From a virus, in IMG/VR virus record IMGVR_UViG_3300045119_000529, positions 1 through 22,953 of that record: a stretch of DNA of 22,953 bases; one strand, written 5' to 3'. Numbering within the stretch: position 1 is the stretch's first letter; every line of letters starts with the position of its first letter. The position numbers and the translations under genes are program-made. This document shows, piece by piece, positions 5,964 to 20,192 of this stretch. Under the pieces are notes generated by a model. It worked only from the letters and a program-made list of their open reading frames with translations. It did no database searches and was not told where the DNA came from.

Positions 5964-6310
5964 CAGGCCATCCCCGGATCGCGATACTGCGCGAGCAGGT
6001 TCCGGAGCTCCTTCCAGATGATCGCCTCGTCGCTCCGCGCGTTCGCGCCCAGATCGTCGCCGCGGTGCTCGTAGTAATGGACCGTCACGAGCAGGATCGC
6101 GTGCTTGACGGCCATCGGCGCGGTCGACGGCGTCCAGGTCGCATCGGCCGCCGGCCCCAAGTACGCGAGCACGGCCTCCTGGGCGGTCGCGAGCTTCTCC
6201 TCGACGTCTGTATCGTGCGCCGCGTCGGTGATGCGCAGTTGGATCGCCTTGACCTCCGCGGTCGTCCAGAGCGGCCCCTCGAGCGCGACGCGCGAATAGT
6301 CCAGCGTCAT
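5963..6310 (-). CDS. Head-tail connector protein (HK97 gp6-like)
   Basis: A 115-residue protein. I place the start at the ATG at 6310 because it makes an ATGA overlap with the portal stop and gives 'MTLDYSRVALEG'. The same frame stays open much further upstream, but only as a shadow of the portal gene. The C-terminal two thirds are helical, with 'AEVKAIQLRITDAAHD', 'AVKHAILLVTVHYYEHRGD' and 'RNLLAQYRDPGMA', the pattern of gp6/gp15-type connectors ('ai..l..h.Ye.R'). Twelve or so copies extend the portal and receive the head closure protein. The gene is coupled to both neighbours by overlaps. Confidence 0.88.
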   Translation of the reverse strand: MTLDYSRVALEGPLWTTAEVKAIQLRITDAAHDTDVEEKLATAQEAVLAYLGPAADATWTPSTAPMAVKHAILLVTVHYYEHRGDDLGANARSDEAIIWKELRNLLAQYRDPGMA

Positions 6311-7644
6311 GCGGGCGTCTCGACTCCCGTCGCCGTCACGTCGACCGGAGCCGCCGGCGCCGCGGCCGGGGGGGCCGCCGCGGGCGCCGGCGCCGCCAGG
6401 TCGCGCATGGCGAGCGCTTCGAGCGAGTAGTACTGCTGCTGCAAGAACGGCGAATCGCCGCCCGGGACCGGGCCGAGCCCGAAGTACTTCAGGCGCGCTT
6501 CGTTCGGCGACAGCGCGCCGGCGCTGATCGCATCGTGGGCGGCCTTGGTCTTGGTCGCGGTGTCCATCCAGATCAGGTCGTCCAGGTCGAACTCCGTGCC
6601 ATAGGGCGCCGGCAGCTCGAGGCCGGCATCGAGCGCCGCCTCGATGTGCGTCAGGTGCGTCTGCAGGCATTGCGAGTGGTACTGCAAGGTCGACGCTTCG
6701 TTGTTCGCGTACGGCGGCTGCTGGCTGGAGTCGACCATCGAGATCGGCACGCCGAAGCAGCCGGCGATGAGCTTCGCGGAGAGGCCCATCTGCTCGATGA
6801 GCTGCGAGTCGGCGGCCGACGCCCCGACGGGCTCGTACTTCATGAAATCGCCGAGAAACGCCGTGCTGCCGGCGCCCATCTTGTTCCAGGTGTCTTTCAG
6901 CCGCTCGAGCGTCTTCTGGTCGAGCGACTGCGGCCGGCTCTCGGGCGGCATCAGGATCCCGCTGGGCCGGCCGCCCCCGGAAAAGAACTGCGTCGAGGCG
7001 GCCTGCATCTCGAGGCCCTGGCGCGCCGCGCCGCCGCAGGCGTAGAGCGGCGACAGACCGACGAGCGGGTGATAGGCGCAGTTCCACCGGTCGTGAATGA
7101 TCTCTTTCGCCGGGACGACGACCGGCCCGCCACTGACCGGGATCCCGGCCAGGTCGCTCGTCTGGAGCTCGTAGTAGACGCTGCCATCGGGCGCGACCAG
7201 CGGCTTCACGCGGCACGGGTCGAGGACGTAGAGCGACGTCACGACGCCGCGGGCGTCCCGATCCTTCAGGACGTACGTGTTGCCCCACAGGAGCTTCGAG
7301 AACATCCAGACTTCGAAGAACTGGGCCGGCGTCTGGTACCGGTTCGGCACGCGCAGGACGGGCGAAAACGCTGGGCTCGTCGTCTCGTGCCAGATCCCGT
7401 TGGCATCGACGGCGACGAGCCGCAGCGGCAGCTTCCCGATATCGGAAGCGATGAGCGAGACGCAGCGAAAGACGACCGGATTGGCGAGGACCGTGTCGAG
7501 CCGGAGCTCGTCGTTGTTCTGCCAGGCGCCGGGGTACGGTTCGCGGACGATCGGCATCCACGCGCCGGTCCCGCCGGCGGGCGACGAGGCGCCCGGGGCG
7601 AAGACCGCGCGCAGCGACGAGCGGATCGACGCGATCACGCCCAC
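6307..7644 (-). CDS. Portal protein (HK97 family)
   Basis: A 445-residue protein, normal length for HK97-type portals, starting with GTG at 7644 just after the capsid gene's TAA. Recognisable stretches are 'NPVVFRCVSLIASDIGKLPL', 'RYQTPAQFFEVWMFSKLLWG' with 'NTYVLKDRD', 'IHDRWNCAYHPLVGLSPLYA', 'LERLKDTWNKMG', and 'GCFGVPISMVDSSQ', all characteristic of the phage_portal family. The C-terminus ends in an Ala/Pro-rich tail of about 35 residues that is likely disordered. The dodecamer sits at one capsid vertex, where TerL docks for packaging and the connector attaches. Gene order here (TerL, protease-capsid, portal) has the portal after the capsid, the reverse of the common HK97 order. Confidence 0.96.
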   Translation of the reverse strand: MGVIASIRSSLRAVFAPGASSPAGGTGAWMPIVREPYPGAWQNNDELRLDTVLANPVVFRCVSLIASDIGKLPLRLVAVDANGIWHETTSPAFSPVLRVPNRYQTPAQFFEVWMFSKLLWGNTYVLKDRDARGVVTSLYVLDPCRVKPLVAPDGSVYYELQTSDLAGIPVSGGPVVVPAKEIIHDRWNCAYHPLVGLSPLYACGGAARQGLEMQAASTQFFSGGGRPSGILMPPESRPQSLDQKTLERLKDTWNKMGAGSTAFLGDFMKYEPVGASAADSQLIEQMGLSAKLIAGCFGVPISMVDSSQQPPYANNEASTLQYHSQCLQTHLTHIEAALDAGLELPAPYGTEFDLDDLIWMDTATKTKAAHDAISAGALSPNEARLKYFGLGPVPGGDSPFLQQQYYSLEALAMRDLAAPAPAAAPPAAAPAAPVDVTATGVETPA

Positions 7645-7649
7645 GGGGC

Positions 7650-9494
7650 TTAGCCCTTGCTACGGCCGGCCGGCGCCTCGGCGCTCGTCGGCGCCGGCCA
7701 GGCGACGCCGGTCAGGTACTTGACCGCGTTCGGGTTGGCCTTCGCCCAGTTGATGAACCGCTCGGCGCGGAGCCCGACGCAGTTGTTCTGCCAGAGCGAG
7801 ACGAGCACCGTGGTCGCATCGGCCGGCGACATCGGCGCGCTGTCCATCTGGAGCGAGGCCTGCTCGGAGGCGTCGATCGTCACGCCGCCATCGTCGGCGT
7901 ACAGCACGAGCGACGGCTGCAGCGCGATCACGTTGCCGCCCGCGGCCTGACTCGTGATGAACGTCAGCCCCTTGTACGTGCCGCCGGCGACCGTGATCCC
8001 CGGGAACTCGGGCGAGCCGTCCAGGTTCGTCCGGAACGTCAACGCGAGCGCGTTGGCCGCCGACATGATGAACGTGACGCCGCCCACCGCGATGTTGTTG
8101 GTCGCGAAATGACTGATCAGGCTGATGATGTCGGCGAGTGGATTGACGGTCGCCGCGGCCGTCGGCGCGCCGTTGGTGATCGACGCCGGATTGACGCCCG
8201 CGACCGCGGCGACGGCCGGGTCGATGAACTGCTGATCGAGGAACTGCGCAATGCCGGCGATCATGTCGGCGCGGACGAGCGCCTCGGCGCTCGGGTTGCT
8301 CAGCATGACCAGTTCCTTCGTCAGGACGATGATCCCGGCGGCCTTCGAGACGCCGAGCGACGTCGACGAGAACGCGAGCTTCGAGACGGGCTTCGGCTTG
8401 GCTTCCCCCACCCAGCCATACGTGCCGCCGGCGGTCTGGGTCGGGACCTTCGTGTTGAAGGGCACCTGGCGCAGGCCGGGGATCTTGCCGAGGATGGTCG
8501 CCGGCCGCAGGAGCTCGATGAACTCATTCGAGACGTTCTGGTTGACGAGCGGCGACGCCCAGGTCGCGTCGGTCGTCGTCCCAGGCGCGACCGCGGCCTT
8601 CAGATAGAGCGCGACCTCGGGCGTCGAATCCTTCCAGCGCTCCGCATACTCGATGGCGTCGCGGACGTTGCCCTTGCAGACCAGCTGCGCGCAGGCGGCA
8701 CGAACGAACGCCGTGCCGAGCGGGACGTTGGCCTTGACCGAGATCGAGGGGTATATCGCGCGCGGGGCCGGCGGGGCTGGAACCGGCACGGCGGCCTTGA
8801 TTTGCAGTTCCTCGAGGTTTTGCCAGCGGGCCCGATCGGCGTCAATACTCTTCCGCTGGAGCGCCAGGCCGTCATACTCCGCGGCCAGGTCGGGCTGCGT
8901 CGTCAGGCCGTCGGCGGCGGTGGTTTCCATGATCTCTTCCATCCGCCTCGTCACCGCCGCGCCCTTGTTTTCCAGGTTCTGAATGTGCTCAGAGATCGTC
9001 GGCTTCATCGGGTTCTCCATGCGGCGCGGGGCCGCCAATGACTTCACAAGGCGGATCGTGGCGCTCGCATTCGCGGGAATCGTCACGAGAGAGAGCTCAC
9101 AGATTTCCGTTTTCACGAGCTTGCGCGCGCCGTTCTTGAGGTACTCCACGCCGCCATCGAGGACGCGAAAGCCGATCGAGGCGCCGGAGATCACGCCGGC
9201 CTTGAGACACTGCCAGGCGTCATCGATCCGCGCCTTGAGCGGGCCGGGCTCGTCGATCTGCGGGAAGGTCGCCTCGAACGTAATGCCCGCGGGCGTGGCC
9301 GTCAGGTACGCCGTGCCGATCGGCGCCGCCGTGTCGTGATGCAGCAGGAGCGGGAGGGGATTGCGGAACGTGGCGCCCGCCGGGTCGAGGATATCCCCCT
9401 GGCGATCGAGCTCGGGCGTCGACGCAATGCCGGTAATTATCCGGCGGGACGGCTCAACCGCTTTGACCTCGAGCAGGGCGTAGGCACGTTCCAC
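7650..9494 (-). CDS. Prohead protease-major capsid protein fusion (HK97 fold)
   Basis: One 614-residue ORF holds two proteins usually encoded separately. Residues 1-155 are an HK97/S78-type prohead protease: 'RIITGIASTPELDRQGDILD', 'LPLLLHHD' (likely catalytic His 52 or 53), 'LKAGVISGASIGF' (likely Ser 106) and 'KTEICELSLVTIPAN' (likely acidic residue Glu 133). Residues 163-614 are an HK97-fold capsid protein: a helical delta-like scaffold segment (165-240), then the shell domain with 'VNQNVSNEFIELLRPATIL', 'GGTYGWVGEAKPKPVSKLAF', 'KAAGIIVLTKELV', 'DQQFIDPAVAA' and 'FINWAKANPNAVKYLTG'. The GTG start at 9494 lacks an obvious ribosome site. An internal ATG at 9008 has a good one, so free capsid protein may be made as well. 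The capsid subunit would also be freed by cleavage after the delta domain. Confidence 0.93.
   Translation of the reverse strand: MERAYALLEVKAVEPSRRIITGIASTPELDRQGDILDPAGATFRNPLPLLLHHDTAAPIGTAYLTATPAGITFEATFPQIDEPGPLKARIDDAWQCLKAGVISGASIGFRVLDGGVEYLKNGARKLVKTEICELSLVTIPANASATIRLVKSLAAPRRMENPMKPTISEHIQNLENKGAAVTRRMEEIMETTAADGLTTQPDLAAEYDGLALQRKSIDADRARWQNLEELQIKAAVPVPAPPAPRAIYPSISVKANVPLGTAFVRAACAQLVCKGNVRDAIEYAERWKDSTPEVALYLKAAVAPGTTTDATWASPLVNQNVSNEFIELLRPATILGKIPGLRQVPFNTKVPTQTAGGTYGWVGEAKPKPVSKLAFSSTSLGVSKAAGIIVLTKELVMLSNPSAEALVRADMIAGIAQFLDQQFIDPAVAAVAGVNPASITNGAPTAAATVNPLADIISLISHFATNNIAVGGVTFIMSAANALALTFRTNLDGSPEFPGITVAGGTYKGLTFITSQAAGGNVIALQPSLVLYADDGGVTIDASEQASLQMDSAPMSPADATTVLVSLWQNNCVGLRAERFINWAKANPNAVKYLTGVAWPAPTSAEAPAGRSKG
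9006..9018 (-). promoter_or_regulatory. Candidate internal ribosome site and start for free capsid protein
   Basis: On the minus strand GGAG (9018-9015) is followed by a 6-base spacer and ATG (9008-9006, codon 163 of the fusion), giving 'MKPTISEHIQ', a typical capsid delta-domain beginning. The ATG four codons earlier lacks such a site. Initiation here would give a 452-residue capsid protein without the protease. Confidence 0.5.
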
Positions 9495-9537: not shown

Positions 9538-9699
9538 AGTTGTTTTTGTGCTGAGCGCGAGCCGAATCATGGCCGGGATCGAGACGTCCAGCCGGCGCGC
9601 CGCCGCGCAGAACTGATCGTATTGCTTGCGCGGGAGCGTGATCGTCACCAGCTGCGAGCCGTCATCCTCGTCGACGCGCGGCCGGCCGCGGCGCTTCAC
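9529..9699 (-). CDS. Small ribbon-helix-helix-like DNA-binding protein
   Basis: A 56-residue protein whose GTG start overlaps the TerL stop (GTGA). A basic, Arg/Gly-rich N-terminus ('RRGRPRVDEDD') leads into 'QLVTITLPRKQYDQFCAAAR' and 'DVSIPAMIRLAL', a strand followed by two helices in the register of Arc/CopG/MetJ-type ribbon-helix-helix proteins. These bind DNA as dimers and often repress promoters. The frame extends upstream only as a shadow of TerL. Placed between the terminase and capsid genes, it could modulate late expression or packaging; neither is shown. Confidence 0.75.
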   Translation of the reverse strand: MKRRGRPRVDEDDGSQLVTITLPRKQYDQFCAAARRLDVSIPAMIRLALSTKTTKK

Positions 9700-11309
9700 C
9701 CGACCACCACCATCTCGTAGCTCGGCGCCGACGCCGGCGCGAGGCGGTTCATGAGGTCGACGGCCATGATGAGCGCCACGACGCCGTCGATCTTCTCGGT
9801 CGAGCGGTCTTTGTTCGGCCGGAGATTGCCGGCCGCATCGGTCTCGACGGCGACGTTGCTGACATTCCAGCGCAGGACCGGGTGCCCGTCGTGACGCAGC
9901 CGGCGGCCGAGGATCGCCTGCTCGAGCGACTTGGTCGGCGCCGAGAGCGACGCGAAGCCCTGGCGCATTGACACGCACGGGAAGCCGTCCTGCTGCTGCA
10001 GGCGCGAGACCAGGTCAGTGGCGTTCCACGGATCGAAGGCGATCATCTGGAGCGAGAACTCGGCGGCCCATTGTCGCAGGGTTTGCCGGAGCGCATCGTA
10101 GTCGACGACCGCGCCCGGCGTCGAGGTCAGGACGCCCTGGCGCGCCCATTCGTCGTACGGGACGTGATCGCGGCGGGACCGTTCCCGGATGCGTTCTTCA
10201 GGCACAAAGAACTGGGCCAGGACGTCGAACCCGAGCTCGTCGGGAAAGACCGCCACGAGGGCCGTCAGGTCGGTCGTCGTGCTCAGGTCCATCCCGACGT
10301 AGCAGCGGCGCTTGGCGAGGGCCTGGCGGGCCACGGGCTGCAGGCAGGCATCCCAGGCCGGCATCTGGATCCACCGGGCGACCTGCTCGGTCCACTGGTT
10401 CAGGTACAGCCGGCGGAACGTGTTCTCCTGCGCGGGGATCGCCTGCGCCCGGGCCGCCAGAATCTGCATGTCCTCGAGCGAGCGGAAATCGCCGAGCGCG
10501 GGGTTGGCCTTCCGCCATACCCGGCGCTTCGTCCAGTCGGCGTCTTCAGGCGCCTCATAGAGAATCGGGAGAAACGTCGGATCCAGCGCCGGCCGCTCCT
10601 GCACCTTCTTCGCGTGCGCGTACAGCTCCCAGAGGATCGAATGGCGATCGTACCCCGCGGTCGAGATCACGAGCAGCAGCGGCTGCTCCCGGCCTCCCAT
10701 CGACGTCGAGAGCACGTCATACAGCCGGCGATCGGGCGCCGCATGGAGTTCGTCGTAGATGACCATCGATGCATTGAAGCCGTGCTTGCTGTGCGCCTCG
10801 GCCGCGATGGCCCGGCAGACACTGCCGGTCGATGGATGGACGATCCGTTTCTGGGACTCGATGATGTAACACGCCTCATCGAGCGCCGGGTCGTTCCGGA
10901 CCATTTGCGCGGCGACGCCAAAGACCAGACCGGCCTGATCGCGATCGGCGGCCGCCGAGTACACCTCGGCGCCCGCCTCGCCATCCGCCACGAGCCCATA
11001 GAGCGCAATCGCCGCCGCGAGCTCCGTTTTCCCGTTCTTGCGCGGCAGCATGAGCAGGCACGTCCGGTACTGGCGGCGCCCATCGGGCCGCTTCTTAAAG
11101 AGCTGCTTGAGGATGCGGACCTGCCAGGGGCGCAGGTGGAAGGGCTGCCCGGCGAACTTGCCCTTGGTGTGGGTCAGGCGGTTGATGAACGCGATCGGGT
11201 CTTGCGCCGGCTCCGGGGGACCCAAGGGCCCCTCGTGACGGGTGGGTGCGTTCCGGTTCCATCCGCCTCGCCGGCTGGGTTTCGCCGGAAAGACGATGGG
11301 ATCAGCCAT
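9696..11309 (-). CDS. terL: Terminase large subunit (HK97/Terminase_1 type)
   Basis: A 537-residue motor-nuclease that packages DNA into proheads. The ATPase half has an adenine-binding-like 'HLRPWQVRILKQLF' (58-71), Walker A 'LPRKNGKT' (88-95), Walker B 'MVIYDELH' (182-189, D186/E187) and a coupling motif 'LLLVISTAG' (210-218). The nuclease half has 'VGMDLSTTTDLTAL' (acidic D340 and D346), 'MIAFDPWNATDLV' and, near the C-terminus, 'KIDGVVALIMAVD', giving the RNase H-like acidic cluster. All expected catalytic residues seem present. The ATG at 11309 has only a poor ribosome site, and the preceding 128 bases are unusually AT-rich, so the gene may have its own transcription signal. It is followed directly by the overlapping small DNA-binding protein. 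Confidence 0.97.
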   Translation of the reverse strand: MADPIVFPAKPSRRGGWNRNAPTRHEGPLGPPEPAQDPIAFINRLTHTKGKFAGQPFHLRPWQVRILKQLFKKRPDGRRQYRTCLLMLPRKNGKTELAAAIALYGLVADGEAGAEVYSAAADRDQAGLVFGVAAQMVRNDPALDEACYIIESQKRIVHPSTGSVCRAIAAEAHSKHGFNASMVIYDELHAAPDRRLYDVLSTSMGGREQPLLLVISTAGYDRHSILWELYAHAKKVQERPALDPTFLPILYEAPEDADWTKRRVWRKANPALGDFRSLEDMQILAARAQAIPAQENTFRRLYLNQWTEQVARWIQMPAWDACLQPVARQALAKRRCYVGMDLSTTTDLTALVAVFPDELGFDVLAQFFVPEERIRERSRRDHVPYDEWARQGVLTSTPGAVVDYDALRQTLRQWAAEFSLQMIAFDPWNATDLVSRLQQQDGFPCVSMRQGFASLSAPTKSLEQAILGRRLRHDGHPVLRWNVSNVAVETDAAGNLRPNKDRSTEKIDGVVALIMAVDLMNRLAPASAPSYEMVVVG

Positions 11310-12888: not shown

Positions 12889-13049
12889 CACGTATGCCGC
12901 GCCCATTCCTGCGGGGTATAGCCGCGGTCTTTGTAGCCCTGCAACAGCAGGGCGCGCTCGAACTCGGCCTGTAAGCGGGCCGCGATGCGCTCGCACTGTC
13001 GGCAGCGCCGATGCCAGCCATGCAGACAGGGCAAGCGGATCGCCGTCAT
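12888..13049 (-). CDS. Small Cys/His-containing protein
   Basis: A 53-residue basic protein with ATG at 13049 (ATGA overlap with the upstream gene) and TGATG overlap into the HNH gene. It has 'LPCLHGWHRRCRQCERIAAR', a compact C-H-H-C-C set that could bind one metal, followed by a helix 'LQAEFERALLLQGYKDRGY' and 'TPQEWARHT'. No family is recognised. The frame continues upstream as a shadow, so the short start is chosen on the overlap. The two-sided stop/start overlap supports a genuine gene. Confidence 0.65.
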   Translation of the reverse strand: MTAIRLPCLHGWHRRCRQCERIAARLQAEFERALLLQGYKDRGYTPQEWARHT

Positions 13050-13237
13050 GGTGGCCCCTTGCGCGCCGCCAGGGCGGGCAGCTCGGGAAAGCGGGCGCGC
13101 ATCGTCGCCTGCTCCTGCTCGGTCCGGGTGATCAAGGGCGCGCGCCGACCGCAGGTGTGACAGACCAGGACCACCCGACCATCGGGCAGCCGCTCGCGCC
13201 ACGTATGCGGGTGATCGCACCAGAAGGCCCAGCGCAT
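13046..13237 (-). CDS. Small zinc-finger-like protein
   Basis: A 63-residue protein beginning 'MRWAFWCDHPHTWRERLPDG' and continuing 'VVLVCHTCGRRAPL', giving C-x2-H near the N-terminus and C-x2-C about 16 residues later, a plausible one-zinc ribbon. The C-terminal half is a charged helix ('TRTEQEQATMRARFPEL'). It starts 4 bases after the PEP-CTERM gene's stop and overlaps the next gene by ATGA. Function unknown; small ribbons like this in phage early regions may bind host proteins or nucleic acid. Confidence 0.65.
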   Translation of the reverse strand: MRWAFWCDHPHTWRERLPDGRVVLVCHTCGRRAPLITRTEQEQATMRARFPELPALAARKGPP

Positions 13238-13241
13238 CGCA

Positions 13242-13919
13242 TCACCGGCGACGCCGCCCCATCCGACGACGGCCCAGCGCGACCAGCCCGACCAGGCCCG
13301 TGCCGAACAGCAGCACCGTCGCGGGCTCGGGCACCGGCGCCGCCGTCGCGTTGAACGTGCCCGTCGCGTCGGCCGTCCCGCTGCGGATCGACGTGCCGGT
13401 GACGCCGAGCCCGCCCTGGTTCAGGTTGCTGAAGCTGAACGCCATGCCGCGGGGCAGGCCGAGCAGGGTCGGGTCGAGCACCGTCGAGCTGCCCGAGAAG
13501 GTGTTCGGCGGCTGACTGGCCTGGAGCGTCGGATTCGTGCCGCCCAGGCTGCCCTGGATCAAGTCGGTGAACGTCACGGTCAGCAAGTTCACCGGTCCCT
13601 GGGTGATCGACAGGCTGCCGCCGAACGCCTCGGTCAGCGCCTGGCCGTTGACGGTCGCCGGGCCGAGACTCGCCGCCGAGAGGTTCAGCGTGAAGACGCC
13701 GGGCGTGACGCCGCCGCAGCCCGCCACGAGACAGAAGGCGGGATCGAAGACCACGACGATCGGCACGTTGGTCGCCGTGAGCGTGGTCGTGGTCCCGTTG
13801 CCGCTGAAGATGAACGGCGTCGTAAACCCGACCTCGGTGAACTGCAAGATCGTACTGGCCGAGGCCGTCGACACGAAGCCCACGCAGCACAACCACCCCA
13901 ACAACACGGCTTTTTTCAT
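13242..13919 (-). CDS. Secreted PEP-CTERM surface protein encoded by the phage
   Basis: A 225-residue protein with AGGAGA before ATG 13919. Residues 1-21 are a signal peptide ('MKKAVLLGWLCCVGFVSTAS', cleavage likely after A21). The body is Thr/Ser/Gly-rich and beta-like ('LQFTEVGFTTPFIFSGNG', 'FTLNLSAASLGPATV') with one Cys pair. Residues 196-225 form a full PEP-CTERM sorting signal: V-P-E-P at 196-199, a hydrophobic helix 'ATVLLFGTGLVGLVALG' and an Arg-rich end (RRRMGRRRR). Such tails are recognised by exosortase in the host inner membrane and lead proteins to the cell surface or exopolysaccharide. The gene overlaps the upstream phage gene by ATGA, so it is part of the operon rather than a separate moron unit. 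A role such as changing the host surface or excluding other phages is inference. The same frame extends upstream as a shadow. Confidence 0.9.
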   Translation of the reverse strand: MKKAVLLGWLCCVGFVSTASASTILQFTEVGFTTPFIFSGNGTTTTLTATNVPIVVVFDPAFCLVAGCGGVTPGVFTLNLSAASLGPATVNGQALTEAFGGSLSITQGPVNLLTVTFTDLIQGSLGGTNPTLQASQPPNTFSGSSTVLDPTLLGLPRGMAFSFSNLNQGGLGVTGTSIRSGTADATGTFNATAAPVPEPATVLLFGTGLVGLVALGRRRMGRRRR

Positions 13920-14245
13920 CTGACTTCTCCTGTGACATCTTGCGTCGCCTTGACGCGCGCGATCGCGTCCGTGTGTCCGATGAGCGCGTCCGCACGCGAC
14001 GGATACCGCTGCTGGTACCCGTCGTCGACCCCGCCGAAAATCATCGTTTCCCACAGCAGCGGCCGACCGCCGCCGAACGCATGATCGAGCGCGAGAAACA
14101 CCGTCGAGACCCGCACCTCGCCGACCTGATCGACTCGGACCACGCGATCGGCCGTCTCGAACCAGTCGGCCCACATCCGCGGATCGTCAATCGCGAGCGG
14201 TTCCCCGTCGACGCCGAGTACGTATAAATGCGATCGGTGCTTCAT
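13916..14245 (-). CDS. Conserved phage hypothetical protein
   Basis: A 109-residue protein; ATG 14245 chosen for the ATGA overlap with the upstream stop. The sequence 'YVLGVDGEPLAIDDPRMWAD' leads to 'VRVSTVFLALDHAFGGGRPL', 'LWETMIFGG' and 'YQQRYPSRADALIGHTDAIA'. The pattern 'vsTvFLgLdh.fg...pllfEtMvfgg...g...ry.t..eA..gH' is one I have seen in many phage and prophage hypothetical proteins, but I know of no established function. It is soluble, with no signal peptide. It precedes and overlaps the PEP-CTERM gene. Confidence 0.8.
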   Translation of the reverse strand: MKHRSHLYVLGVDGEPLAIDDPRMWADWFETADRVVRVDQVGEVRVSTVFLALDHAFGGGRPLLWETMIFGGVDDGYQQRYPSRADALIGHTDAIARVKATQDVTGEVR

Positions 14246-14511
14246 GTACCCTCCGGTAGGATCCAGACGTCGCCGGGTTCGACGCGCGGGCCGCCACACC
14301 CGGCACATAACACGATGCCCGGGCGCACGGCGGCCCGGAATCCCGGAATCGGACGGTAGCGGACGAGCCCCGCGCAGGCGGTGCACGCCCCGAGCTCGTC
14401 GCCGGCGAACGACCAGGGCAGCTCGAGGCGCCGACCGATCACGAGGATCACACTCTGACCAGACCGGTCACACCCCATGCCAGGATCCCCCAGGAACGTA
14501 TGCAAGCTCAC
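14242..14511 (-). CDS. Small zinc-ribbon protein
   Basis: An 89-residue protein with GTG at 14511 overlapping the upstream stop (GTGA). A first half with strands 'SGQSVILVIGRRLELPWSF' is followed by 'GACTACAGLVRY' and 'GIVLCAGCGGPRVEPGDVWI': two C-x2-C knuckles about 27 residues apart, a standard four-Cys zinc ribbon. Function unknown. An in-frame ATG twelve codons in is an alternative start but would lose the overlap. It belongs to the run of small Cys-rich proteins in the early region. Confidence 0.75.
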   Translation of the reverse strand: MSLHTFLGDPGMGCDRSGQSVILVIGRRLELPWSFAGDELGACTACAGLVRYRPIPGFRAAVRPGIVLCAGCGGPRVEPGDVWILPEGT

Positions 14512-14771
14512 CGCCGGGCGACACTCAACGGCGATCGCTGCTCAAGTCGAGCCGTCGCGTCTTCGTCGTCATCCTGGATAAAGCCGGTGCTATTCACCTG
14601 GCCGCGCACCTTCAGAAAATCCACTTCCACCTTTGCGGACTCGACGATCACCTTCGCGACCTCGGCGACCGCGCGCGCGCGATCGATCTCCATCGGCTTC
14701 CCGGTATCGCGGAGAGACGCGAGCGTCTCGAACAAGTGCTTACGCAGATCGTTGATGTTGTTCTTCGGCAT
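14508..14771 (-). CDS. Conserved phage early protein of unknown function
   Basis: An 87-residue helical protein. I take ATG 14771 ('MPKNNINDLRKHLFETLASL') rather than a TTG further upstream, because related phage proteins begin near 'INDLRdhLF.tl..L'. The middle 'MEIDRARAVAEVAKVIVESA' and 'KVEVDFLKVRGQ' continue that pattern, known from many temperate phage replication regions as a hypothetical protein; I know of no proven role. The start lies inside the end of the HNH gene (32-base overlap). The C-terminus is acidic, then basic. Confidence 0.8.
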   Translation of the reverse strand: MPKNNINDLRKHLFETLASLRDTGKPMEIDRARAVAEVAKVIVESAKVEVDFLKVRGQVNSTGFIQDDDEDATARLEQRSPLSVARR

Positions 14772-15480
14772 GACGGTCTCGTTTTCGAATTTGGCGGTTG
14801 AGTGCGCCAAGCAGTTGAATCGCCTTCATGAGCGGCGCCGGCAAGTTGTGTATCGAGTTCCGCCGCATCAATTCGCGGCGAGTGATCAATTCGAGATTGG
14901 TCGGCCGACAGTCGTGCTTGTCCTTGTTCTTGAACACAACCGTGTGACCGGGCGGGACGGGTCCGTGGACGTATTCCCACACTAGTACGTGCAGGAATTG
15001 CCAGTTGAAGCGCGACGGGATGGCGCGGTCATCGTTGATCTTCCACTTCACATAGCCGTCCGGGTCGACAACCTCCGTCCCGATGGGGACCCAGGTGTGC
15101 GGCCGGCCGCCCTTTTTGAACTGCGTATCCCTCATGCGGCCGGAATGCCAGCCTGGCCGACGCAGGCCCTTGTTCCACGTGTCGTGTCCCTTTGGAAACC
15201 AGCATGTGCGCCCGCGATGGTCCCCGCGCCGTATCCGTGCGGAGGCTTCGCTGGCACGAAAGGCGACGGACTTTTTGATGCCAAGGAGCCGCGCTCGAGC
15301 GAAGATCGCAGGCACCGTACGGCGTAGTCGTCGGACAAGCGTTTGCGTCGACGTGTCGGGATACAGGCGACGGACTCGAGCATCGTCAGCCTTACTCCAG
15401 AGTCGCTTGCCCGCGCGAAAGCGATCAGCCATGTTGTTCAGCTGCTCGCGACGAGCGCGCCGCTCGTCGCAGAACTTCAC
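14740..15480 (-). CDS. HNH endonuclease, HNH_3 type with N-terminal DNA-binding region
   Basis: A 246-residue protein with GTG at 15480 (GTGA overlap). The N-terminal part 'RLWSKADDARVRRLYPDTST' with 'TVPAIFARARLLGI' resembles a SANT/HTH-like DNA-recognition module. A basic middle 'WFPKGHDTWNKGLRRPGWHS' leads to the nuclease core 'FLHVLVWEYVHGPVPPGHTV' with 'VFKNKDKHDCRPTNLELITR', that is, the H...N...N/H pattern of HNH_3 enzymes. It is likely a free-standing homing-type nuclease or a phage nicking enzyme. It overlaps the downstream gene by 32 bases, which suggests an inserted gene that has intruded on its neighbour. An internal ATG (15432, 'MADRFRAGKR') is another possible start. Confidence 0.88.
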   Translation of the reverse strand: MKFCDERRARREQLNNMADRFRAGKRLWSKADDARVRRLYPDTSTQTLVRRLRRTVPAIFARARLLGIKKSVAFRASEASARIRRGDHRGRTCWFPKGHDTWNKGLRRPGWHSGRMRDTQFKKGGRPHTWVPIGTEVVDPDGYVKWKINDDRAIPSRFNWQFLHVLVWEYVHGPVPPGHTVVFKNKDKHDCRPTNLELITRRELMRRNSIHNLPAPLMKAIQLLGALNRQIRKRDRHAEEQHQRSA

Positions 15481-15752
15481 GCGTCCTTCGGATCCGGCGC
15501 CGACCGACCGATCAAGCCCAGGATCACATTCGCGATCGCGTTCGTCTCCGCCGTGGCGACGACGCCCAGGCGGAGCTCGAGATCGGGACGGTGCGCGGAC
15601 GTGAGCCGGTTCATATGGGTGACGTCGGGCGGGATCTCCGCGCCGTCGGGCACGTAGTAGATCTTCCGGACGTACTTCTGGGCTTCGGGGTTGCCCTCGA
15701 GCCAGGTGTCGAGCGTGCCTTGTACGTCGATCTCGTGCGTCAGTCGGTCCAT
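15477..15752 (-). CDS. Hypothetical protein
   Basis: A 91-residue protein with a clear ribosome site (GGAGAG, 7 bases before ATG 15752). It starts 'MDRLTHEIDVQGTLDTWLEG' and continues 'AQKYVRKIYYVPDGAEIPPD', then 'LELRLGVVATAETNAIANVI' and 'LGLIGRSAPDPKDA'. It seems to be a small mixed alpha/beta protein; no family recognised. There is no Cys cluster or signal peptide. It is followed with GTGA overlap by the HNH gene. Confidence 0.7.
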   Translation of the reverse strand: MDRLTHEIDVQGTLDTWLEGNPEAQKYVRKIYYVPDGAEIPPDVTHMNRLTSAHRPDLELRLGVVATAETNAIANVILGLIGRSAPDPKDA

Positions 15753-16125: not shown

Positions 16126-16328
16126 CAGGCGCCCTGCTTCCGCTGCCACGTCTCGACCTCCGGCCGATTGCTGAGCCGATCGGTGAACGACGCGCACGAC
16201 TCCTCCGCGCCCGTCAGGACCGCGGGGATCATCTCGAAACACGTCCCAATCCCCTCGCCGTCCTCGTCGGTCCCGCGCCGCTTCCAGCGCATACAGGACC
16301 CGCAGCGGGGCGTGCCTACTGGCGCCAT
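16125..16328 (-). CDS. Small Cys-rich protein, paralogue of the plus-strand gene at 20568
   Basis: A 67-residue protein with ATG 16328. 'RCGSCMRWKRRG' is followed by 'GIGTCFEM' and 'ESCASFTDRLSN', giving a C-x2-C plus two further Cys that could bind one zinc. The protein at 20568-20765 on the other strand has the same skeleton (CSACLSWKRR, RGSCWHEA, HACDHFADRL), so they are likely paralogues. Function unknown; similar Cys-rich proteins are common in phage early regions. It overlaps the end of the lipoprotein gene by 13 bases and the membrane peptide by TGATG. Confidence 0.75.
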   Translation of the reverse strand: MAPVGTPRCGSCMRWKRRGTDEDGEGIGTCFEMIPAVLTGAEESCASFTDRLSNRPEVETWQRKQGA

Positions 16329-16723
16329 TGCCCGCTCACCGAGAGCGGCGAGAGCAGAAAGTCCTGCGACGTCGCCTCGCGAAAGACCGTGTTGTCGACG
16401 ACGATCTGCACCGACAGAAACGGATAGACCACGGCGAAGCCGTAACTGACGGGCGTCCCCTCGAGCGACAGAAAGAGCGAGTCGCCCGTGATCGTGAGCG
16501 TGTTGAAGTACGGGAGCGACGTCACGACCTGGCCGAGCCCGTCGACGGGCTCGGAATAGCGCACGCGCACGCTGGCCGCATTGCCGAGCACGCGGAACTG
16601 GATCGTATGTTTCACGACGGCCGGCGTCGTCGCGACCGGCGTCGGCGACGTGACCGTGACATACGTCCGCTGCCGACACGCGATGAGCGAGAGCGCGAGG
16701 ACGACGACGAGACAGACTTTCAT
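16316..16723 (-). CDS. Predicted phage lipoprotein
   Basis: A 135-residue protein with AAGGGG upstream of ATG 16723. It starts 'MKVCLVVVLALSLIAC', an n-region with one Lys, a hydrophobic core and a lipobox L-I-A-C with the lipid-bearing Cys at 16. The mature part is beta-rich with Thr/Pro in the first stretch ('VTVTSPTPVATTPAVV') then 'HTIQFRVLGNAASVRVRYSE' and 'PVSYGFAVVYPFLSVQIVVD'. It would sit on the periplasmic face of the inner or outer membrane. Phage lipoproteins often block superinfection, but that role is not shown here. It is not Rz1-like: too long and not proline-dominated. Confidence 0.8.
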   Translation of the reverse strand: MKVCLVVVLALSLIACRQRTYVTVTSPTPVATTPAVVKHTIQFRVLGNAASVRVRYSEPVDGLGQVVTSLPYFNTLTITGDSLFLSLEGTPVSYGFAVVYPFLSVQIVVDNTVFREATSQDFLLSPLSVSGQWRQ

Positions 16724-16736
16724 CACGGTTCCCCTT

Positions 16737-17579
16737 CTAGAGCGGTGGCTCCGGGCGCGGGTCGTCGCGCTCGCGCAAGTGCTGGATCATCCGGCCGTAC
16801 TTCGTGTCGGTGTAGCTGATCAGGACTGGCAGGCCGGCCGTCTGCGCGTCTTTCGCCGCCGTCGCGAGCGTGAGCGAGAACGTCTGATACGTCTGCTGGT
16901 TGTCGGCCGTGATGACGAACTTCTGGGCGCCGTTCTTGACCTGGCGCTTGACAATGCCGACGACCTTGACCTCGATCGTCTCCGGCCGCGCGACCGCCGG
17001 CGTCGTGTCGGCCACGATCTCGCCGGTCTCGGTGTCGACGGCCTGGGCCATCTCGTCGCCGGTGTAGACGCCGGAGAGCTCCTGCGGGAACGCCTTGCGG
17101 AAGGCGAGCGCTTCGGCACACTTCGCGATCATCGTGTCGGCCATCGTGCGCCAGAGGCCGGCCAGCTGCCCGCGGTCGCCGCGCGCGGCGTACGCCTCGG
17201 TGCGGGCCACGCCCCAGACCGGTTCGGCGAAGTCTTTCCGCCACACGCCGATCTTGGCCGCGACCGGCGGATCTTTCGAGAGCCAGACGTCCATCCAGGC
17301 GCCCGACTCGCCGCACCAGAACGGGCCCACCTGGCCGCGGTACTCACCCGTGCGCTGCGCGATGAGTCGGAAGCCATCGATCGCGGTCTGGATGCTGAGC
17401 TTGCTGCCGCGCTTGATGGCGTAGATCTGGCGCGTAAGCGCGTCCAGGCCCGTGCGTTGGCACTGGTAGAGAAAGAGCTTCAGCTCGTCGTCGGTGACGC
17501 CGACGGCGACCTGGCGCTTGATGAGATCGATCTGGTCGCGCGTGTACGGCACGGGCATCGTTGCAAGACCGGTCGTCAT
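16737..17579 (-). CDS. bet: Single-strand annealing recombinase (Bet/RecT family)
   Basis: A 280-residue protein with ATG 17579 (ATGA overlap). The Red-beta-like core is plain: '[20 protein letters not shown]', '[20 protein letters not shown]', '[16 protein letters not shown]', '[20 protein letters not shown]', and '[20 protein letters not shown]' with '[12 protein letters not shown]'. It anneals complementary single strands in phage recombination and probably concatemer formation. The C-terminal part after about residue 200 ('[20 protein letters not shown]') looks like an added OB-like segment that is not part of the core. No 5'-3' exonuclease partner is recognisable beside it. The next in-frame ATG, seven codons in, is an alternative start. 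Confidence 0.95.
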
Positions 17580-17932
17580 GCGTCCTCCTGGTCTCCCGCC
17601 GCGGCTTTCGCGTAATCGAAGAGGCCCGTCGTGGATTCGGCGAGCGAGGCCCACGACTGCGGCTTGCGAACCAGGCGCACGCGTCGCACCGGCCCCGGCG
17701 CGGCCGCCGCGGGCATTTCGACCGGCGGCGCCGAGAGCTGCTGCAGGTCCGCATCGGTGAACGGCCGGTAGCGTTCGCCGCACGCCTGGCAGCGATACAG
17801 CGGCCGCGAGACGCCCGGCAGGCGCAGCTCGAGCACGAGCGCGCCGGCGGGAATCTGGGTGGGGCCGTGCACATCGTCCCCGCACCCGCCGCAGAGCGTC
17901 TCGACGACGGCGAGCGTCCAGGTGGCCGCCAT
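17576..17932 (-). CDS. Zinc-ribbon protein next to bet
   Basis: A 118-residue protein starting at ATG 17932 (TGATG overlap with the replication gene; a GTG lies one codon earlier). It carries '[13 protein letters not shown]' and '[13 protein letters not shown]', a four-Cys zinc ribbon with knuckles about 33 residues apart separated by strands ('[12 protein letters not shown]'). The C-terminal half is Ala/Pro-rich then '[20 protein letters not shown]'. It could assist recombination or replication on the grounds of position. No exonuclease motif is visible. It overlaps bet by ATGA, so the two are likely made together. Confidence 0.75.
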
Positions 17933-18609
17933 CACGAGGCCCGCCCGGGCCGTTGGAAGACCGCCGCGTCCATCGCTTTCGTAACGTCGCGGCCCGTGGC
18001 GAACCGAATCTTGTGGACGCCCGCCAGGTCTTTCAACTGCTCGCAGAGCTCGCTCATGGGCGGGAGGTCTGCGTCCGGGCTGAGCCGGTCGAGCACCACG
18101 TGCGCGAGTCTGACGAGCACCTTGGCGTGCGCGGGGCGCGCGTCAGCGCGCTGCTCTTTCTTTCTTGATCTTGATCTTGGGATCGGATTCGGATTCGGAT
18201 TCGGAACCCGCAGAATCTTTTCGGACTCCGCGGCGATTCTTTTCGGATTCCGAACGGAATTTTTCTGGAATTCCCGCTTGCGGGCCACATCGATCCGCCG
18301 CTTTTCCAAGACGGCCGCGGCGCTCGGGTTGTAGTCGTTGAAGTCGTGGAGCCGGTAGCCGTTGCCCTCGGCGTGGAGGAGCCCCGCGGCCACCATCGCG
18401 TCAATGATTTCCCCCGGCTTTTTGTCGTAGCGGGTGTCCTCGAGGATGATGCCCGGCACCAGGCCGTCGGTCAGATGTGCCACCGCATAGCAGGCGCCGA
18501 TCGTCCAGATGCCGATCACGCGCGCCACCGCGCCTTTGCCGAGCTGCTGGCCGGCGGCGAGGACTTTCCGGTGACTCGCGAAGTTGCTTTCAATGCGAAG
18601 CCAGGCCAT
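17932..18609 (-). CDS. Replication initiator / primosome-like protein
   Basis: A 225-residue protein; ATG 18609 is chosen for its strong AAGGAGG site 7 bases upstream. Residues 1-110 look like a winged-helix domain of phage replisome organisers: '[20 protein letters not shown]', '[20 protein letters not shown]', '[20 protein letters not shown]' and '[20 protein letters not shown]'. A low-complexity linker '[16 protein letters not shown]' follows, then a helical C-terminal domain ('[16 protein letters not shown]'). This two-domain layout recalls lambda O and DnaT-like loaders, with origin DNA binding in the N-half and helicase or host-protein contact in the C-half; the exact family is not certain. 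The linker is encoded by iterated repeats that may be the origin. Confidence 0.75.
18162..18274 (-). repeat. Iterated repeats within the replication gene (candidate origin)
   Basis: On the plus strand TTGATC occurs twice in tandem (about 18165-18176), GGATTC three times in tandem (18185-18202), and two copies of a TCTTTTCGGA-NTCCG element lie near 18216 and 18237. Next come the inverted repeat ATTCCG-AA-CGGAAT (about 18247-18260) and GGAATTCC near 18267. The stretch is less GC-rich than its surroundings. Iterons inside an initiator gene are the layout of lambdoid origins; the link is inferred. Confidence 0.5.
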
Positions 18610-18622
18610 TCCCGGCCCTCCT

Positions 18623-18835
18623 TCACGCGCGGCGCCGCGCGCGATGGAACTCAATCTCATTGTTGAAGCCGTGCAGCCAGACGTCGATCTCGCGTTGATC
18701 GAAGAGGTACAGGCGGCCGCGGCGGCAGAACGGCAGCTGGTGTTGCTTCACGAGGCGGTACAGCATGTTCAGCGAGCCGAGCCGGAGGTACGCCATGGCT
18801 TCGTTGGCGGTGAGATAGGGACTCGGCGACATCAT
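18623..18835 (-). CDS. Excisionase/AlpA-like helix-turn-helix protein
   Basis: A 70-residue protein with start MM at 18835 (18832 possible), GAGG a few bases upstream. 'YLTANEAMAYLRLGSLNMLY' is followed by 'RLVKQHQLPFCRRGRLYLFD' and 'QREIDVWLHG', the HTH_17/MerR-like 'l.t..eaA..L.v....vy.lv....lp..r.g....f...eid.Wl' pattern of excisionase-family proteins. These bind DNA as directionality factors or regulators. No integrase is present in the window, so a regulatory role in the early operon is at least as likely as excision. It overlaps the XRE gene's stop. Confidence 0.87.
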   Translation of the reverse strand: MMSPSPYLTANEAMAYLRLGSLNMLYRLVKQHQLPFCRRGRLYLFDQREIDVWLHGFNNEIEFHRARRRA

Positions 18836-19076: not shown

Positions 19077-19104
19077 AATATACAACTAAGTTGACTTGTG
19101 TCAA
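19077..19104 (-). promoter_or_regulatory. Sigma-70 type promoter for the leftward operon
   Basis: On the minus strand TTGACA (19104-19099, perfect -35), 16-base spacer, TATATT (19082-19077, 5 of 6 to consensus). The XRE ATG is only 17 bases past the -10, so the transcript leader would be about 10 bases, with no good ribosome site: a nearly leaderless message. This is the clearest promoter in the window. Confidence 0.75.
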
Positions 19105-19105
19105 C
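19083..19105. promoter_or_regulatory. Overlapping palindromic operators
   Basis: Two palindromes overlap the leftward promoter: GTTGAC-TTGT-GTCAAC (19090-19105, covering the -35) and CAACT-A-AGTTG (19083-19093, in the spacer). An additional AGTTAACT palindrome lies close to the start codon. They are natural sites for a dimeric HTH repressor; which of the two flanking XRE proteins binds is unknown. Confidence 0.55.
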
Positions 19106-19376: not shown

Positions 19377-20192
19377 ATCTGGGGGACTCCTACAACAACG
19401 CGAATAAGTGGGGCGGCGGTGGCGTCAACACGGGCAAACACACAAAAGTCCGTTGATGGCGAGGTTCCGTCATGGTCAGGCGTCCGCCGGAGGTGGAGCG
19501 GCTTGGAAGGCACAAAGCCGAAAGACCTGCTCATGATCCCAGCTCGTGTCGCGCTCGCGCTCCAGGCGGATGGCTGGTATCTCAGGGCGGATGTGATTTG
19601 GAGCAAACCCAACCCGATGCCCGAGTCAGTGACCGACCGGCCCACGAAGTCACACGAACACCTGTTCCTGCTGGCCAAGGCCGAGCGCTACTTCTACGAC
19701 GCGAAGGCCATCGCCGAACCAGCGAGCGAGTCGATGCTTACACAGGTCGATCAGGTCTACAACTCGCTCGGCCTGAAGGACTACGAAGCGGCCGGTGTGC
19801 AGAACCCGTCCAGCGTCAAGGCGCGGATCATCGCGAACGCGCGCACCAAACAGGCCGGCCATGGACGTCGCTACGACGGTTTCAATGAGCGCTATTTTGG
19901 TGATTCCGAACCACAACTGACCCGCAACAAGCGCGACGTCTGGACGATCCCGACGCGCCCGTATCTTGGCGCCCATTTCGCGACGATGCCGGAAGACCTC
20001 GTTGAACCGCGCATCTTGGCCGGCTGCCCGATCGGCGGCCTCGTGCTGGATCCGTTCATCGGCTCTGGCACCGTTGGAGCCGTCGCCTCACGACTCGGCC
20101 GGCGATGGGTCGGCACGGACCTGAACTATCAGCACCTGGCCGCTGAGCGCACCTCACAACGCGGGCTGATGTTCGCGGAGGCCACCTCGTGA
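19367..20192 (+). pseudogene. DNA methyltransferase remnant: N-terminus missing and 1-nt frameshift
   Basis: Methyltransferase similarity begins at 'CWVNLGDSYNNANKW' (19367, one frame) and continues, after a shift at an A4 run (19444-19447), in the next frame to TGA 20190-20192. Landmarks are 'GTKPKDLLMIPARVALALQA', 'DGWYLRADVIWSKPNPMPES', 'VTDRPTKSHEHLFLLAKAER' and, near the C-terminus, motif I 'DPFIGSGT' (20049-20072) with 'RRWVGTDLNYQHLAAER'. This motif order (catalytic motif first, SAM-binding motif I last) is that of beta-class amino-methyltransferases. The segment that should hold the catalytic (T/D/S)PPY motif, roughly 80 residues, is absent. Removing one A restores 'GKHTKSVDG', so a single-base insertion explains the shift. 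Without the catalytic motif it should not methylate DNA. The frame-B part alone (from 19419) is open but begins inside the domain. Confidence 0.8.

Follow-up and report, generated by a model that had tools for sequence, protein, structure and literature searches.

The locus examined here raises the question of what a gene for a PEP-CTERM protein does in a phage. PEP-CTERM is a C-terminal tag with which bacteria direct proteins to their sticky outer coat. Proteins of this kind are typically chromosomal (PMC1569441), and their chromosomal genes mostly form single-gene operons behind large intergenic regions (Haft 2006, PMC1569441). The window, i.e., the whole stretch of DNA that was analysed, comprises the 22,953 bases of an IMG/VR virus record; the virus, which infects a soil bacterium, has a PEP-CTERM protein gene inside its own operon. 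The gene, P0001, is a 225-aa ORF with an ATG start, identified by PF07589 and TIGR02595 matches, and runs on the minus strand from 13919 to 13242, stop codon included. The order on this strand begins with an HTH regulator, a replication initiation protein, RecT, a putative lipoprotein, small genes, and an HNH endonuclease; from P0001 on, it continues with a second HNH gene, the terminase large subunit (TerL), a protease-capsid fusion, the portal, connectors, the major tail protein, and the tape measure.

The signal peptide, the beta-like body, and the V-P-E-P with its helix and Arg tail, which the initial annotation had read from the letters, were confirmed by profiles, by-eye reading, and an AlphaFold2 model. 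The predicted Sec signal peptide (residues 1–21; 13857–13919, minus strand), with the N-terminal sequence MKKAVLLGWLCCVGFVSTASAS, was read by eye, possesses a putative cleavage site near ASA-S, includes a helix at residues 3–13 in the model, and evolves fast. Neither by eye nor in the model does a transmembrane segment lie between the signal peptide and the PEP-CTERM domain. The Thr/Ser/Gly-rich body (residues 22–195; 13335–13856, minus strand) is a predicted beta barrel, conserved across the phage family according to alignment, model, and dN/dS. The PEP-CTERM domain (residues 195–218; 13266–13337, minus strand) consists of VPEP, a hydrophobic helix, and an Arg cluster, and the C-terminal end of the protein is APVPEPATVLLFGTGLVGLVALGRRRMGRRRR. 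P0001 exceeds the cut-offs of both profiles, with 27.1 bits over residues 195–218 for PF07589 (hmmscan; curated cut-off 20.7) and 23.0 bits for TIGR02595 (cut-off 16), which places it among the PEP-CTERM sorted proteins by its C-terminal domain; in a six-frame profile search of the window, PF07589 reached 31.2 bits (E 8.5e-9), also above the curated cut-off. The model, calculated from the family alignment with a mean pLDDT of 81 and approximately 90 in most of the body, comprises the N-terminal helix, a beta-barrel-like body, and a C-terminal helix at residues 201–223. Its structural neighbours are small barrels, some of them AOC (allene-oxide-cyclase)- or dirigent-like, at Z values of approximately 10 (VIA Z 10.3 for 2q03 and 9.7 for PloI4); these values hardly exceed the usual background, and no function can be derived from the fold. 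Foldseek gave no match to the model at E ≤ 0.001.

The gene is tightly packed between its neighbours. Upstream, a coupled gene of 109 aa (13916–14245, minus strand) overlaps P0001 by the ATGA that the initial annotation had noticed and that is visible in the sequence; homologues of this upstream gene are present in two PEP-CTERM-bearing viral contigs, L058 (55%) and L287 (47%). Downstream, a gene of 63 aa (13046–13237, minus strand), found by comparison to be conserved in phage relatives, starts 4 nt past the PEP-CTERM stop. Profile matches on the minus strand identify the RecT-like annealing protein and the replication initiation protein (16737–18660), whose operon P0001 shares, as well as TerL (9696–11309), downstream of P0001 in the same direction, and the portal and protease-capsid genes (6307–9494). 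The putative lipoprotein gene (16316–16726, minus strand), with the lipobox LIAC read by eye, is conserved in most group members and in nearly all of the relatives whose contigs include this region, and its product is a possible envelope or exclusion protein.

In sigma-70 and terminator consensus scans, blind to some types of promoter, neither a promoter-like nor a minus-strand terminator-like site adjoins the PEP-CTERM gene. The best promoter-like site for the leftward operon within 11.2–19.5 kb, at 19104 (19077–19104, minus strand; 11/12), is located at the head of the operon. An inverted repeat, GTTGACTTGTGTCAAC (19090–19105), overlaps this site between two divergent HTH genes and is likely an operator; beyond the divergent HTH gene lies an N4/N6 DNA methylase gene (19419–20192, plus strand). 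In a pattern scan, the sigma-54 site characteristic of PEP-CTERM genes in chromosomes was matched in the window no better than by chance. No tyrosine integrase was detected in the window at E ≤ 0.01.

Two further viral contigs carry P0001 orthologues, L002 (80% over residues 1–216) and L003 (82% over residues 1–174); the latter contig ends at orthologue residue 174, before the tail. Both orthologues have homologues of further window genes as neighbours, although their own place in the module is shifted, and L002 additionally carries an integrase, the terminase small subunit, and the beginning of TerL. Near the L002 integrase, a tRNA-Arg(CCU)-like 3′ fragment was seen by eye (365–409), with a 91% match in L129 (59–103); this fragment is likely the attachment site. 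Between the window and L002, dN/dS is 0.29 for the body, 0.18 for the PEP-CTERM domain, and approximately 1.2 for the signal peptide, and between L002 and L003 it is 0.07 for the body; over the orthologues, the body ranges from 0.07 to 0.30 and the signal peptide from 0.7 to 1.2. By these ratios, purifying selection acts on the P0001 orthologues. Their occurrence in two independent contigs, together with the low ratios of the body, shows that the gene did not arise as a chance ORF or through chimeric assembly. A chance ORF is ruled out by the profile scores and the conservation as well as by dN/dS. In 235 shuffles of the upstream stretches of the L028 group, the PEP-CTERM detector gave 0 matches.

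Compared with relatives that lack the P0001 gene, DNA homology restarts at 13237–13246, the exact gene end, and upstream at approximately 15487, which makes the PEP-CTERM gene part of a variable cassette (13247–15486, minus strand) containing an HNH2 gene, small genes, and the PEP-CTERM gene; relatives with approximately 74–86% identical flanks lack this cassette or have other DNA in its place. The objection that the contig might join host and phage DNA at this gene is contradicted by the L002 and L003 orthologues and by the homology resuming at the gene end, and a chimera or host-flank artefact is ruled out on the same grounds. Phage genes surround the gene in more than one independent contig, and the ATGA couples it to its neighbour; the gene belongs to the phage rather than to host contamination, so the initial proposal of a PEP-CTERM protein built into a true phage operon is borne out.

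By TerL, the window belongs to a group of uncultivated phages whose contigs measure 22.9–25.7 kb, and a tyrosine integrase is present in all eight near-complete relatives searched. In the case of G006 (22,996 bp; TerL 84% identical), the corresponding variable region encodes a different PEP-CTERM protein of 255 aa (27.5 bits), for whose body no relative was found among the pattern-sampled matches listed and the TerL group; other group members have different small genes in this region. In a search of 50 records (TerL-related records plus L002 and L003), PF07589 matched only in G006 and L002. Window positions 13905–13936 and G006 positions 19515–19547 are 88% identical over 33 nt spanning the start codons, the PEP-CTERM genes being otherwise unrelated, and it is possible from this alignment that bodies have been swapped behind a common start codon. 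Many related contigs (L124, L125, L126, L130, L131, L136, L139, L142–L144, L147, L149, L152, and L176) share a start point exactly 30 nt ahead of TerL, suggestive of a cos-like physical genome end at this place.

Beyond this group, the initial annotation had proposed a search of viral databases for PEP-CTERM tails near phage genes, and such relatives do adjoin TerL, portal, scaffold, or capsid genes. The IMG/VR contigs are uncultivated and were used without annotation, with genes outside the window called by a simple script. A DNA pattern for PEP-CTERM matched at least 120 IMG/VR stretches, and true-looking C-terminal tails were present in 115 of 126 among the pattern matches listed. With the tail removed, the P0001 body defines a family of at least 30 by BLASTP among the IMG/VR matches listed, in whose alignment of sampled members VPEP is kept intact; the L028 branch of this family counts 46 loci. 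The PEP-CTERM gene precedes an HNH gene and TerL in L115, lies between TerL and portal in L030, abuts TerL in L025, and in L067 and L283 occurs as two tandem genes followed by TerL; in L283 (4140–5492), the tandem consists of two different PEP-CTERM genes approximately 1.2 kb before TerL. In L099 and L292, the gene follows and adjoins the major capsid gene, in L027 it separates the scaffold gene from the capsid gene and is encoded on the opposite strand, and in the L028 group it is upstream of the capsid gene at 9 of the 24 loci having 6 kb of upstream sequence. It is near a weak TerL match and a RusA gene in L052 and L289, and approximately 5–6 kb before a weak TerL match in the large phages L029 and L059, whose records contain DNA ligase and UvsX, respectively, and no tyrosine integrase. 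A second body family is represented by L058, in which a 4-nt overlap ties the gene to the portal stop, with connector-like genes coming next. These neighbourhoods were picked out for inspection and show recurrence, not an unbiased rate.

The carrier phages include 23-kb temperate siphophages, a group of approximately 42 kb, and a phage of approximately 120 kb; one record with a relative of P0001, 119.7 kb in length, has no tyrosine integrase. Their TerL and capsid families differ; hence, the gene has either moved between unrelated phages or been acquired repeatedly. Its accessory distribution (G006 and L002 only, and the 9 of 24 L028-group loci) indicates that it is not essential. No phage-type RNA polymerase was found in the carriers, and the control genomes were equally without a match. 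The recurrence of related tagged proteins near head and DNA-packaging genes suggests that phages borrow the host exosortase.

Of 49 viral records with a PEP-CTERM gene, a set separate from the window, 48 gave no match to an exosortase (PF09721), and there is none among the annotated genes of the window. The sole match, at 54485–54931 of G114 (the record of L110), may be phage-borne or belong to host flank; with 1 of 49 records, an exosortase of the phages' own was rejected. With 48 records devoid of the enzyme, a host exosortase would be needed, and the use of the host enzyme, as originally proposed, is the natural reading. With regard to the host itself, a search of GTDB contigs (A1) gave no relative, and for TerL these contigs offer relatives of no more than 53% identity, mostly from Firmicutes, which gives no information on the host.

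The best explanation, tentative and with a little less than an even chance, is that P0001 is a phage-encoded surface or matrix protein, sorted by the host exosortase and made in lytic growth, that alters the cell surface or the EPS. Following the known pathway, Sec would export the protein, the C-terminal helix would keep it anchored in the inner membrane, its PEP would be recognised by the host exosortase, and the beta-barrel body would be delivered to the outer surface or the EPS. Synthesis during lytic growth is suggested by the position of the gene and by the role of host PEP-CTERM proteins. In Aquincola, overexpression of pepA, encoding the PEP-CTERM protein PepA, raises bound EPS and lowers soluble EPS, PepA holding EPS on the cells (PMC9850573). 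P0001 may thus act by receptor masking or by competition with host PepA-like EPS-holding proteins, and the outcome could be that sister phages do not superinfect, that progeny do not re-adsorb, or that progeny are freed from the EPS. A gene inside a phage operon with no visible promoter, unlike the chromosomal genes, makes lytic expression likelier than lysogenic conversion; similarly, the difference between single-gene chromosomal operons and a phage operon without a sigma-54 site favours lytic expression with an effect on surface or EPS.

The main rival is a lysogenic-conversion gene (moron) that is expressed from the prophage, changes the surface or EPS of the lysogen, and excludes other phages. 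This reading is unlikely, yet it draws on the integrases of all eight near-complete relatives searched and of L002 and L003, the divergent HTH regulators of the window, and the accessory distribution within a variable cassette. Against it stand the translational coupling in the leftward operon with no own promoter or terminator seen within the reach of the consensus scans, the window without a tyrosine integrase, and the relatives inside head and packaging modules, including the 119.7-kb integrase-less record; for the same reasons, the action during lysogeny that had been proposed at the outset is not specifically supported. Less probable still, the tail could be a C-terminal membrane anchor only, with the barrel acting in the periplasm, e.g., as an entry-exclusion factor at the inner membrane, and with no more than incidental processing by exosortase. 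A signal peptide and a C-terminal helix are enough for anchoring, the carrier phages encode no exosortase in 48 of 49 records, and other phage exclusion proteins are known to act in the envelope; however, VPEP itself, not any hydrophobic tail, is kept intact in the family alignment, G006 joins a different body to an equal kind of tail, and the dN/dS of the PEP-CTERM domain is 0.18. A recently captured host gene or contig artefact with no phage role, conceivable because PEP-CTERM proteins are typically chromosomal and IMG/VR contigs can include host DNA, is highly improbable and already contradicted by the two independent orthologues, the coupling to the upstream gene, the homology restarting at the gene end, purifying selection, and the recurrent location in head operons.

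Sorting by the host exosortase in lytic growth may also be extended, more speculatively, to a whole class of phage proteins that is widespread and was acquired repeatedly: phages of several unrelated lineages with EPS-forming diderm hosts would hijack the host exosortase through a PEP-CTERM gene in the packaging/head operon and rewire the EPS matrix by PepA mimicry against superinfection, re-adsorption, or progeny trapping. If true, this would mean that phages make use of the exosortase/PEP-CTERM pathway, about whose function little is known, and that a recurrent class of their genes targets the surface coat of EPS-forming bacteria. The PEP-CTERM gene would become a host-range predictor for many uncultivated phages, as the host must have an exosortase, and the proteins would offer small natural substrates for the purpose of PEP-CTERM sorting, with one body on diverged tails or different bodies on one kind of tail. 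Searches of 50,697 GenBank phages with P0001 and four further PEP-CTERM proteins from viruses gave no relative, a search of plasmids with one of these proteins gave none either, and PHROGs has no family for P0001, the L002 orthologue, or the G006 protein. In the open-access literature, as far as the search listings show, no paper on phage PEP-CTERM proteins was found, the top match concerning host genes, in agreement with the earlier remark, which knew of no such described system in phages. One viral protein, encoded at L281 2427–3128, is a member of NF033947 (cistern family PEP-CTERM protein; 111 bits against a cut-off of 60), so part of the phenomenon may already stand in annotation resources; its gene directly follows a family-1 gene in a large-phage-like contig.

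Compared with known systems, P0001 resembles the substrates of the PEP-CTERM/exosortase (EpsH) system of Gram-negative bacteria in its signal peptide, its body free of transmembrane segments, and its PEP, helix, and basic tail. In contrast to chromosomal PEP-CTERM genes, its gene is phage-borne, stands in an operon with overlapping neighbours, and has no sigma-54 site above chance in its window, and unlike PEP-CTERM/exosortase bacteria, the carrying viral records are almost without exosortase. With the flocculation-associated PepA (NF033554), it shares the PEP-CTERM and, in several family-1 members, a weak profile similarity reaching into the body; however, P0001 is phage-borne, and every score is under the equivalog cut-off of 80 bits (30.2 for P0001 and at most 48.9 for the relatives scanned). 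The family-1 proteins scanned are likewise far under the 60-bit cut-off of the cistern family, P0001 scoring 19.7. Lom and Bor of lambda, Llp of T5, and Cor of N15 are outer-membrane proteins or lipoproteins and not exosortase substrates. P0001 is similar to these surface-exclusion proteins as an accessory phage gene for a predicted exported envelope protein, but differs from them in bearing the tail of an exosortase substrate.
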